From Butyrivibrio fibrisolvens 16/4 (GTDB lineage: Bacteria; Bacillota; Clostridia; Lachnospirales; Lachnospiraceae), in assembly GCA_000209815.1 (NCBI GenBank), contig FP929036.1:675885-739884 (forward strand): a stretch of DNA of 64,000 nucleotides, in the 5' to 3' direction. Below, one piece after another: positions 41,060 to 63,985 of this stretch (positions within the stretch are counted from its first letter, which is position 1; each line of letters opens with the position of its first letter). The notes below the pieces were generated by a model. The model worked only from the letters and a program-made list of their open reading frames with translations. It had not been told where the DNA came from and did no database searches. The position numbers were made by a program, and so were the translations under genes.

Positions 41060-41082
41060 TTTCATAGTTAAATAAATAGGAA

Positions 41083-41216
41083 ATCTTCAGGGCAAGGTGC
41101 GAAAGCGTTAGCTTTCAATTCCTGACCGGCGGTATAGTCCGCGAGTCTTATTTTTAAATAGGACCGAACTGGTGTGATTCCAGTACCGACAGTATAGTCT
41201 GGATGGAAGAAGATGT
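41083..41216 (+). promoter_or_regulatory. FMN riboswitch (RFN element)
   Basis: Conserved aptamer words appear in order: ATCTTCAGGGCAAGGTG, CCTGACCGGCGGTATAGTCC, GCGAG, GGTGTGATTCCAGTACCGAC, AGTATAGTCTGGATGG and AAGAAGAT. The first and last segments pair as P1. FMN binding would fold the downstream terminator at 41242 and switch off ribU. Confidence 0.96.
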
Positions 41217-41241
41217 GCAGAAGTTTTATTTGTGTACGTGC

Positions 41242-46773: not shown

Positions 46774-46867
46774 AGAACCCCAGTTACACTCTCAAGCCTT
46801 AGTTTGCTCCGCTCAACTAACACGTTTCGCTAAAGCAACCTAAGAGCTTGATAGCTACTGGGGTTCT
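46774..46867. repeat. Long hairpin element, family A copy 2
   Basis: A 94-bp inverted repeat between convergent pepF and the DUF4317 gene. Outer arms AGAACCCCAG / CTGGGGTTCT differ from the other copies but are self-complementary. The inner words TTACACTCTCAAGCC, GCTCCGCT, GTTTCGCTAA and AGAGCTTGATAGCTAC are shared. It is positioned as a bidirectional terminator. Confidence 0.78.
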
Positions 46868-50305: not shown

Positions 50306-50334
50306 TTGACTTTAAAAGTCTAAATAACTATACT
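50306..50334 (+). promoter_or_regulatory. Strong promoter of the asnS leader
   Basis: TTGACT (50306-50311), a 17-base spacer and TATACT (50329-50334). The second leader at the window's right edge has the same arrangement (TTGACA, 17 bases, TATACT). Confidence 0.8.
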
Positions 50335-50361
50335 TTACTCAAATAAAGAAGGGGAACAGTC

Positions 50362-50436
50362 ATGGCATTTACATCTATGCTTAATAATCTCAATAATAAC
50401 AATAACAATTCCGTGAATAATAATCAGGGGATTTAA
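50362..50436 (+). CDS. Asparagine-rich leader peptide of the asnS attenuator
   Basis: This is a 24-residue ORF with 11 Asn codons, six of them consecutive (MLNNLNNNNNNSVNNNQGI). AAGGGG lies about 8 bases before the ATG. It sits between a strong promoter and a terminator, just upstream of the asparaginyl-tRNA synthetase gene. A ribosome starved for Asn-tRNA would stall in the Asn run, the classical logic of a leader peptide. It is not a structural protein. A paralogous leader lies at 63797. Confidence 0.85.
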   Translation: MAFTSMLNNLNNNNNNSVNNNQGI

Positions 50437-50446
50437 TTTTATTGTG

Positions 50447-50526
50447 TTGATGAGATTTGAAGATTGTTCAAATATGTAAGAATTAGAAAGCCTCATCAAG
50501 CGCAAGTTTGATGGGGCTATTTTTAA
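50447..50526 (+). promoter_or_regulatory. Attenuator (antiterminator plus terminator) upstream of asnS
   Basis: TTGATGAG (50447-50454) can pair with CTCATCAA (50492-50499) as antiterminator. The same CTCATCAA forms the 5' arm of the terminator AGCCTCATCAA / TTGATGGGGCT (50489-50518) with a T tract after it. TGAGATT (50451-50457) can instead pair with AATCTCA (50386-50392) inside the leader ORF, giving the 1:2, 2:3, 3:4 logic of amino-acid attenuators. No T-box sequence is present. Confidence 0.8.
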
Positions 50527-50552
50527 GCCATTTTTGATAAGGAGAAAAGACA

Positions 50553-51953
50553 ATGAGTGTTAAAACAACAGATGTAAGAACACTATCTAGAAACTTCAAA
50601 GACTATGCAGATAAGGAAATCACTGTAGCTGGCTGGGTACGCAATATGCGTGATTCAAAGACATTCGGTTTCCTGGTACTTGCTGATGGTACATTTTTCA
50701 ATCCTGTTCAGGTTGTATTCAATCAGGACAAGATTGACAACTTCGATGAGGTTTGCCACTTAAACGTAGGTGCAGCAGTATATGTAACAGGTATTGTTAC
50801 ACTTACTCCAGAGGCAAAGCAGCCATTCGAGATTCAGGCTACAAAGGTTGTAGTTGAAGGAAAGTCTACACCAGATTATCCAATCCAGCCAAAGAGACAT
50901 ACAATGGAATACCTTCGTACACAGACACATCTTCGTCCACGTACAAACACATTCCAGGCAGTATTCAGAGTTCGTTCTCTTTGTGCTTACGCTATTCACA
51001 AGTTCTTCCAGGAGCGTGATTTCGTATATGTTCATACACCACTTATCACAGGAAGTGACTGCGAGGGTGCTGGCGAGATGTTCCAGGTTACAACAATGGA
51101 CCTTAACAACATCCCTAAGACAGATGATGGCAAGGTAGATTTCTCACAGGATTTCTTTGGCCACGCTACAAATCTTACAGTTTCAGGTCAGTTAAATGGT
51201 GAGACATATGCTCAGGCATTCAAGAACATCTACACATTTGGACCAACATTCCGTGCAGAAAACTCTAACACTACTCGTCATGCAGCAGAGTTCTGGATGA
51301 TTGAGCCAGAGATTTCTTTTGCTGATCTTGAGGATGATATGATTCTTGCAGAGGATATGTTAAAGTACGTTATCAACTATGTACTTGAGCATGCTCCAGA
51401 GGAAATGCAGTTCTTTAACAGCTTTGTTGATAAGGGACTTTTAGAAAGATTACAGCATGTTGCAAACTCAGACTTTGGTCGCATCACATATACAGATGCT
51501 ATCGCAGAGCTTGAGAAGCACAATGATGAGTTTGATTACAAGGTATCTTGGGGATGCGATCTTCAGACAGAGCACGAGAGATATCTTACAGAGAAGATTT
51601 TCAAAAAGCCTGTATTTGTTACAGATTATCCAAAGGAAATCAAGGCTTTTTATATGAAGCTCAACGAGGATGGAAAGACTGTAGCAGCTATGGACTGCCT
51701 CGTTCCTGGTATCGGAGAAATCATTGGTGGTTCACAGCGTGAGGACGATTACGATGTACTTCTTAAGAGAATGCAGGAATGCGGTCTTAAGGAAGAGGAT
51801 TACCAGTTCTACCTTGACCTTCGTAAATACGGTAGCTCTCGTCATGCAGGATTCGGACTTGGATTTGAGCGTTGCGTAATGTACCTTACAGGAATGGGTA
51901 ACATCCGTGACGTAATTCCTTTCCCACGTACTGTAGGTAACTGTGACTTATAA
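50553..51953 (+). CDS. asnS: Asparaginyl-tRNA synthetase
   Basis: This class IIb synthetase charges tRNA-Asn. The N-terminal OB-fold anticodon-binding domain occupies about residues 1-110 ([21 protein letters not shown]). The catalytic core has motif 1 near [16 protein letters not shown], motif 2 ([22 protein letters not shown]) and motif 3 ([15 protein letters not shown]). It has 466 residues. AGGAG precedes the ATG. Expression appears controlled by the Asn-rich leader just upstream, and asnA follows beyond a long hairpin element. Confidence 0.96.
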
Positions 51954-51956
51954 TCC

Positions 51957-52044
51957 GTCGGTTACACTCTCAAGCCTGAGATATTGCTCCGCTTCGCATA
52001 GAAAGCTCCGCTTGAGCAACACTCAGAGCTTGATAGCTACCGAC
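51957..52044. repeat. Long hairpin element, family A copy 3, between asnS and asnA
   Basis: An 88-bp inverted repeat with outer arms GTCGGT / ACCGAC and the shared words TTACACTCTCAAGCCTGAG and CTCAGAGCTTGATAGCTAC. A second small GCTCCGCTT hairpin lies in the loop. It lies 3 bases after the asnS stop and may partly separate asnA expression from asnS. Confidence 0.78.
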
Positions 52045-52070: not shown

Positions 52071-53079
52071 ATGAGTAAGATTTACATCCCAGATGGTTAC
52101 GCGTCGGCGCTTGACCTTAAAGAAACACAGATTGCGATTAAGAAGGTTAAGGATTTTTCAGGCACAGCTTACAGCCGAGCTTAATCTTCACCGTGTTACA
52201 GCACCACTTTTTGTTAGACCTGAGTCAGGTTTGAACGACAACTTAAATGGTGTTGAGCGTCCTGTAGCTTTCGGAGTAAAGGAACAGAATGATAAGGAGG
52301 TTGAGGTTGTTCACTCTCTTGCAAAGTGGAAGAGAATGGCACTTGGTCGTTACGGATTTAATGTTGGCGAAGGTCTTTATACCGATATGAATGCTATCCG
52401 CCGCGACGAGGATACCGACAATATTCATTCTATCTATGTTGACCAGTGGGATTGGGAATGTATCATCGAAAAATCTGCTCGTAACGAAGAGACTCTTAAA
52501 AAGTATGTAAAGAGCGTTTATGCAGCTCTTCGAGTTACAGAAAAATATATCGCAAATTCATATGATTATGTTCAGTGCATTCTTCCTGAGGAGATTCACT
52601 TTATCACTACTCAGGAGCTTGAGGACAGATGGCCAGATCTTGATGCTCATCAGCGTGAGTATGAGGCAGCCAAGGAATATGGCGCAATCTTCCTTATGAA
52701 GATAGGTGATTTGCTTAAGTCTGGTGAAAAGCACGACGGACGTGCACCTGACTATGATGATTGGCAGCTTAATGGTGATATTATTGTTTACTATCCAGTA
52801 GACGATATTTCACTGGAGCTTTCATCTATGGGTATCCGTGTTGATGAGGATAGCCTTGCAGCTCAGCTTAAGAAGGCTGGTTGTGAGGATAGAGCAGAGC
52901 TCCCATTCCAAAAGGCCATTCTTGATAGAAAGCTTCCTTACACAATCGGCGGTGGTATCGGCCAGAGCCGTATTTGTATGTTCTTCCTTAGAAAATGTCA
53001 TATTGGCGAGGTTCAGTGTTCTATCTGGCCTGAAGAGGATGTAAAGACTGCAAATGAAAAGGGCGTAGTTATCCTGTAG
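52071..53079 (+). CDS. asnA: Aspartate-ammonia ligase (asparagine synthetase A), frame broken once
   Basis: This enzyme makes asparagine from aspartate, ammonia and ATP. The N-terminus MSKIYIPDGYASALDLKETQ is followed by VVHSLAKWKRMALGRYGF, GEGLYTDMNAIRRDED, HSIYVDQWDWE, RAPDYDDW, LSSMGIRVDED and the motif-3-like GGGIGQSRICM. The frame breaks at the T5 run 52154-52158; here two added bases (or one lost) are needed, and two would give the family's DFFQAQ. Restored length is about 336 residues. GGAGG precedes the ATG. With asnS it forms an asparagine supply-and-charging pair. Confidence 0.92.
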
Positions 53080-63729: not shown

Positions 63730-63758
63730 TTGACATAAACAAACAATATGATTATACT
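63730..63758 (+). promoter_or_regulatory. Consensus promoter of the second Asn-rich leader
   Basis: A perfect TTGACA (63730-63735), exactly 17 bases, then TATACT (63753-63758). It drives the leader ORF at 63797. Confidence 0.85.
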
Positions 63759-63796
63759 CATAAATAAAATTTTATGGAAAGAAAAGAAGAGAAGAT

Positions 63797-63907
63797 ATGA
63801 AATATATATTCCTCAATAATTTCAATACATCAGATTCGAATCCCGTGAATAATAATCAGGGGATTATTGGTGTTACGAATGATGAGGAAAGACAGTATAT
63901 TTGTTGA
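63797..63907 (+). CDS. Second asparagine-rich leader peptide
   Basis: This is a 36-residue ORF with eight Asn (MKYIFLNNFNTSDSN, then PVNNNQGIIGVTN). It shares the VNNNQGI segment, encoded by an identical 23-nt block, with the asnS leader. A purine-rich AGAAGAGAAG lies ahead of the ATG. The antiterminator segment is inside its last codons. The regulated gene lies past the window; the final bases ACGGAGGATTTGTT look like its ribosome site. Confidence 0.78.
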   Translation: MKYIFLNNFNTSDSNPVNNNQGIIGVTNDEERQYIC

Positions 63908-63985
63908 TACTGTTGATTTATATTAGAGATAGTAAAGCCTCATCAGACTTTTATAGTTTGATGGGGCTTTCTTTATATTTTTTTA
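63880..63985 (+). promoter_or_regulatory. Second attenuator (antiterminator plus terminator)
   Basis: TGATGAGG (63880-63887) is complementary to CCTCATCA (63938-63945). The latter is the 5' arm of the terminator AAAGCCTCATCA / TGATGGGGCTTT (63934-63970), followed by CTTTATATTTTTTT. The arms match those of the asnS attenuator almost exactly. Confidence 0.78.

Follow-up and report, generated by a model that had tools for sequence, protein, structure and literature searches.

The window, the whole stretch of 64,000 nucleotides of Butyrivibrio fibrisolvens 16/4 DNA that was analyzed, carries asnS followed by asnA, and upstream of asnS lies an Asn-rich leader consisting of a promoter, an ORF, an antiterminator arm and a terminator (Table 1). 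Both genes behind the leader charge or make Asn. The initial annotation of this DNA had described a 24-codon leader ORF with 11 Asn codons, six of them consecutive, and re-reading of the sequence confirmed it. With a background of 5.1% Asn, measured in seven hand-picked long ORFs of the window, the binomial chance of at least 11 Asn among 24 codons is about 8e-9; none of the seven contains an Asn run longer than two. The near-consensus promoter of the same annotation was also found at its coordinates; taken by itself the match does not exceed chance (501 bases contain 3 promoter-like sites vs. a shuffle mean of 2.0), though its core sequences are invariant in related leaders. The 178-nt leader folds with a z of -7.0, none of 200 shuffles being equally stable, and the annotated terminator is the sole terminator-like site that was found (shuffle mean 0.2). 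As annotated, the antiterminator arm TTGATGAG is complementary to the terminator arm CTCATCAA, an 8-bp overlap that excludes the terminator.

Table 1. Features of the asnS leader, its operon and the second leader, in window positions
Feature	Position	Strand	Basis or remark
Promoter TTGACT-17-TATACT	50306..50334	+	10/12 consensus match; TTGAC and TATACTT invariant in 24 genus leaders
Shine-Dalgarno AAGGGG of leader ORF	50349..50354	+	sequence
Leader ORF MAFTSMLNNLNNNNNNSVNNNQGI	50362..50436	+	24 codons, 11 Asn
Proposed anti-antiterminator arm AATCTCA, partner TGAGATT at 50451-50457	50386..50392	+	exact in 19/24 genus leaders; weak
Six-Asn-codon run (codons 11-16), proposed stalling site	50392..50409	+	longest Asn run 4-9 in 24 asnS leaders
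Hairpin P2 within the ORF	50407..50433	+	AATTCC with GGGATT, TGA with TCA; second Asn run in loop
Antiterminator 5' arm TTGATGAG	50447..50454	+	partner CTCATCAA at 50492-50499; TGATGAGA invariant in 24/24
Intrinsic terminator hairpin, then U-rich tract	50489..50518	+	folding, terminator search, covariation
asnS, asparagine--tRNA ligase	50553..51953	+	TIGR00457
asnA, aspartate--ammonia ligase	52071..53079	+	TIGR00669; main frame 52093-53079
Promoter-like TTGACA-17-TATACT of second leader	63730..63758	+	sequence
Second attenuator, same family	63775..63975	+	R1 E 8.9e-11; R2 E 1.4e-24
Second leader ORF MKYIFLNNFNTSDSNPVNNNQGIIGVTNDEERQYIC	63797..63907	+	shares PVNNNQGI stretch

In this assembly asnA is divided between two reading frames close to its 5' end, which may be real damage or a sequencing error; the frame is open in the 13 relatives checked (336 to 360 residues). 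A repeat of about 80 bases lies between asnS and asnA (51961-52040) and has a 79% copy at 46783-46858.

The asnS gene was found in 27 of 29 genomes of the same genus, giving 28 loci since one genome has it split over two contigs. The leader is present in 25 of these 27 genomes, whole in 24 and truncated where a contig ends in one (L017, genome G026), so that the annotated anatomy, an Asn-codon leader peptide attenuator before asnS-asnA, is kept through most of the genus. After asnS comes asnA in 25 of the 28 loci, the remaining three being cut off. The leader is absent in two genomes (L026 and L027), where asnS begins one base after a gene that we take to be chemoreceptor-like and is preceded by neither promoter nor leader. 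A search of both genomes (G008 and G018) with R1, a profile of the 24 whole asnS leaders alone, found no leader elsewhere in either. Judged by eye, a relative of this preceding gene also stands before the leader in L023.

The 24 whole asnS leaders, which are all from a single genus and cannot count as independent, have 10 to 14 Asn in 24-33 codons. TTGAC, TATACTT, TGATGAGA and GCCTCATCA are invariant across all of them, and TGATGAGA lies outside the leader ORF in 22 of the 24, yet does not vary. The leader ORF varies in the manner of a translated sequence, with AAT/AAC swaps and codon-sized indels. Its stop codon lies 11-12 bases upstream of TGATGAG in 22 leaders and downstream of TGATGAG in the other two (L028 and L029). 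Extra sequence is found between the terminator and asnS in L005, L015, L023 and L022, and in the last (about 1303-1485) it appears by eye to be doubled in tandem and palindrome-like. A separate observation is that CTTTAACACAATAAAG is common to the start region of the trpD T-box transcript (L112, 1484-1499) and to the asnS leaders of L007 and L011, at or behind the -10 box.

Outside the genus we collected 80 asnS loci, 78 of them with a usable 5' end (L079 with just 161 upstream bases). Among 376 upstream ORFs of 18-45 codons at these loci the maximum Asn fraction was 0.21 (4/19). R2, a profile of 14 leaders with the second window copy in its training set, gave a single match at the 80 loci, on the other strand and behind asnS (E 0.32). 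A plain Asn-codon pattern search came close to its reversed control and was uninformative.

Covariation was analyzed in an alignment (A3) of 15 sequences, including L122, which has since been dropped from the family. In P2 and the terminator together 96.3% of cells are paired and 9 of 20 pairs show changes on both sides (3 of 6 in the P2 helix); none of 500 shuffles was as high on every measure, and slid controls paired at 30-53%. The antiterminator is paired in 80% of cells vs. 20-47% for slid controls, but its column covariation was not above shuffles on any measure, and its paired percentage was reached in 202 of 500 shuffles. Covariation, a check proposed in the initial annotation, supports P2 and the terminator. 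In individual sequences, the arm and terminator change together in L119 and L121 (GATAAGGTC with GACCTTATC), and the same forms occur in L125, L147, L148, L149 and L151. The antiterminator of L124 is kept only through G-U pairing (GATGAGGTC with GGCCTTATC), and that of L123 is 5 bp long.

We then compared predicted folding with the 5' part of the leader free or masked, in a transcript whose terminator 3' arm was not yet made. In the window leader, antiterminator pairing of the terminator arm rose from 0.03 free to 0.80 masked, and 20 of the 24 asnS leaders moved from at most 0.28 to at least 0.45. The exceptions were L007, which was reversed (0.63 to 0.11), L025, which was partial (0.55 to 0.82), and L028 and L029, which were nearly flat. 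Among nine non-asnS leaders, L117, L118, L119 and L122 went from low to high, L120, L121, L124 and L126 were high in both states and L123 was low in both. The antiterminator outdoes shuffled spacers only moderately: 12 of 200 shuffles matched the masked value of the window leader, and across ten sequences between 3 and 145 of 200 did so.

The third pairing of the initial annotation, AATCTCA with TGAGATT, is present in the window and exact in 19 of the 24 leaders, but it is not universal and is no better than codon permutation: 55 of 200 permutations equalled it in the window leader, and between 0 and 91 of 200 did so across ten sequences (the shuffled-spacer and codon-permutation test covered 10 of 11 sequences). 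L007, L011 and L015 have ATCAACA with TGTTGAT instead, L028 has CATCAA with TTGATG only, and in L029 the match CTCAAAT with ATTTGAG lies mostly behind the arm. A helix listing of the leaders takes the best helix of each region without a control; it trims the window antiterminator to 6 pairs and selects helices other than P2 for L001, L007, L023, L117, L121 and L152.

Missed by the initial annotation was that the asnS leader belongs to a wider family, a second copy of which lies near the end of the window and was detected by R1 (match at 63778-63975), whose training set does not include it. This copy has a terminator of the same kind, and a gene for a 429-residue GNAT + methyltransferase protein starts behind it, at the first base beyond the window's end. 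R1 also gave weaker second places in several genomes of the genus. Across 397 genomes of Lachnospiraceae, R1 had matches in at least 11 at E ≤ 0.01, of which two are the source genome and one of the same genus and a third (L122) was later dropped, and R2 had matches in at least 13 at E ≤ 0.001. Six R2 places lie outside its training set (L125, L147, L148, L149, L151 and L152); of these, R1 had already matched L125, and L152 at E 0.0014. With a third profile, R3, at least 6 of 391 genomes of the class matched, all of them within the same family. These genome counts are lower bounds, since searches of more than 40 genomes ran under stricter filters that miss weak matches. The leader family is sparse.

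In other genera of Lachnospiraceae, relatives of the asnS leader precede GNAT or methyltransferase genes. All 11 downstream proteins that were scanned are GNAT acetyltransferases, methyltransferases or fusions of both; the downstream genes of the remaining members among the 25 leaders of other genes were judged by eye, and that of L149 looks shortened. Two of five downstream proteins tested, the methyltransferases of L119 (E 4e-21) and L147 (E 2e-15), resemble part of the PADLOC mad2 profile, a resemblance that need not mean defence. Several places are duplicates: L157 is L152; L150 and L139 are L126; L142 and L137 are L118; L131 is L117; L143 and L136 are L119; L144 is L124; L145 and L138 are L123; and L146 is L121.

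None of ten leader loci reached the cut-off of any Rfam family, and an SpR10_sRNA match at the end of the window-type leader, seen when Rfam was searched at E ≤ 1, is ascribed to chance (22.8 bits, cut-off 50, E 0.51). Ten leader peptides matched no family in Pfam or NCBIfam. A suspected link to the tet(M) leader found no support. By tblastn, one leader peptide had no match in plasmids, and another had a single chance-like match in phages (a Gordonia phage, E 8). A DNA pattern of the P2 core matched L127-L130, L132, L133 and the viral contigs L140 and L141; no leader layout was seen at any of the eight, and they were dropped as chance. L122, a weak R1 match (E 7e-4) before a gene that is presumably RtcB-like, is absent from the R3 matches and was excluded from the family count, and L165, L167 and L168, also weak with R1 and scoring 28-32 bits with R3, were dropped.

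The Asn bias is specific to the asnS leaders. Among leaders related by descent, and hence not independent, the Asn fraction is 0.39-0.50 in the 24 asnS leaders vs. 0.03-0.23 in 25 homologs that precede other genes (a further family member, L159, was left out of the 25 because a wrong ATG had been taken as its start), with no overlap, and the longest Asn runs are 4-9 vs. at most 3. In a midpoint-rooted tree of 33 leaders, produced from a 199-column alignment, nine asnS leaders form one clade (support 76) within a clade that includes four GNAT or methyltransferase leaders (99). The asnS leaders that branch off deepest, L028 and L029, retain a long ORF extending across the antiterminator arm, like the GNAT leaders. 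L160 belongs to the same genus and precedes a GNAT-methyltransferase gene; its leader end (NNNQGISFDVIDE) resembles that of L028 (NNNQGINFDVFDE), although the tree places L160 away from the asnS leaders. Together, the Asn bias, the nesting in the tree and the long ORFs of L028 and L029 suggest an order in which a general leader gained Asn codons and then an earlier stop. Because the alignment has 199 columns and the rooting is by midpoint, we infer this order rather than observe it.

The best explanation of the asnS leader, and in our judgment a probable one, is ribosome-mediated transcription attenuation, with charged tRNA-Asn as the signal and asnS-asnA as the target. When Asn-tRNA is scarce, a ribosome would stall in the Asn runs and cover the 5' part of the leader together with P2. 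This would leave TTGATGAG free to pair with CTCATCAA; the terminator would thereby lose its 5' arm, and transcription would continue into asnS-asnA. With ample Asn-tRNA, the ribosome would reach the stop codon and, in most of the species, the leader would refold so that a long 5' hairpin holds TGATGAG; in L028 and L029 the ribosome itself would translate through the antiterminator arm. In both designs the terminator would then be expected to form.

It is also possible, though we think it unlikely, that what the asnS leader inherited from the GNAT/methyltransferase leaders is a general sensor of translation stress, such that any slowing of the ribosome would induce asnS-asnA and the Asn codons would just add sensitivity. 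The homology to those leaders fits such a sensor, as does the analogous bmrB leader, which according to the available part of its description responds to ribosome-targeting drugs (PMC4191407). A sensor of this kind would not lead one to expect an Asn fraction that separates the two sets of leaders without overlap, nor two downstream genes that are both Asn-related. We attach very little weight to the view that a fixed terminator stands behind an ORF of little regulatory role, with the Asn bias as drift. The DNA of the leader is A-rich, two members of the genus lack the leader, and the antiterminator is just moderately above shuffles, all of which drift would allow; against it, Asn codons are kept although the ORF start and the choice of AAT or AAC vary, other leaders of the family have at most 23% Asn, and the antiterminator arm is invariant.

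Just as improbable, in our estimate, is that shortage of Asn-tRNA is not what is sensed, and that the conserved peptide end (P/S)VNNNQG itself arrests the ribosome or P2 binds a factor. What invites this reading is the near constancy of GTGAATAATAATCAGG across the genus leaders and the second copy, where the loop codons are fixed as AAT. L125, L147-L149 and L151, however, have lost the peptide end but still allow a P2-like helix (in a helix search without a control), so that the constraint would seem to be rather on the RNA, and the long Asn run is left unexplained by either version.

Returning to the Asn-tRNA attenuator, the surprise seems to lie less in Asn itself than in its apparent descent from a family that is not specific to an amino acid: the Asn switch looks re-tuned from such a leader. 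We lean, by a modest degree, towards an undescribed attenuator family that in some Lachnospiraceae precedes GNAT/SAM-methyltransferase genes and senses impaired translation generally. In one genus a copy would have arrived before asnS-asnA and gained Asn runs, and a later, earlier stop would have turned the arm-covering design, kept in L028 and L029, into a trp-like one. If true, this would exemplify in nature the conversion of a general ribosome-stress sensor into an amino-acid-specific one. Because leaders with the Asn bias and leaders without it are found within a single family, and indeed both within the window, codon changes in a reporter offer a way to test how the specificity arose. The finding further draws attention to a family of leaders that precede putative modifying enzymes.

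The initial annotation had further proposed that the Asn leader replaces a T-box, and nothing that we found supports this. There is no T-box in the window, where RF00230 was unmatched and the scan gave only an FMN riboswitch (RF00050, 105.5 bits, 41079-41218), and none at ten asnS loci of the genus (L001, L005, L007, L015, L022, L023 and L026-L029). At 27 asnS loci outside the genus none reached the Rfam gathering score, and 9 of the 27 had none at E ≤ 0.5 either. In the part of PMC2494555 that was available, asnS T-boxes are reported in few Firmicutes. The source organism does use T-boxes, as seen from three matches in its genome, before trpD, thrS and valS, of which one passes the gathering score and two fall short of it. 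No report of an Asn leader or an asnS attenuator was found among the matches listed in a literature search of open-licence papers, which covered titles and the starts of abstracts.

Among known systems, the T-box (RF00230) shares with the Asn leader its kind of target gene (tRNA ligases) and its class of signal, and differs in being absent from the asnS locus. The trp/his-type attenuators of Proteobacteria and Actinobacteria are alike in having a short ORF rich in cognate codons, a hairpin in the ORF, an antiterminator, a terminator and cognate genes (general knowledge and the accessible text of PMC2965389); the Asn leader differs from them in that it would sense Asn, in that its host also has T-boxes and in that it has sequence relatives without a dominant amino acid. 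His leader peptides before hisS paralogues in bacilli, reported in the same portion of that paper, likewise stand before a Firmicutes aminoacyl-tRNA synthetase gene and differ in their His codons and their occurrence in bacilli (PMC2965389). The Leu leader of the S. aureus ilv-leu operon, for which the excerpt available gives mutant and starvation data, is also a Gram-positive amino-acid attenuator, but it precedes a biosynthetic operon, uses Leu codons and belongs to another order (PMC5794164). In bmrB, the drug-responsive leader of B. subtilis bmrCD, the ORF overlaps the terminator, antiterminator and anti-antiterminator structures, as far as the partial text describes it (PMC4191407). Likened by layout, this is somewhat similar to L028, L029 and the GNAT-type relatives, where the ORF overlaps the arm, and bmrB differs from the Asn leader in its response to drugs and in its transporter genes. 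Leader peptides in Firmicutes have been suggested, in what was available of PMC2965389, to come by transfer or by recurrent origin from random sequence, and the present leader suggests a third route, in which a leader already serving another gene is duplicated and its codons are changed.
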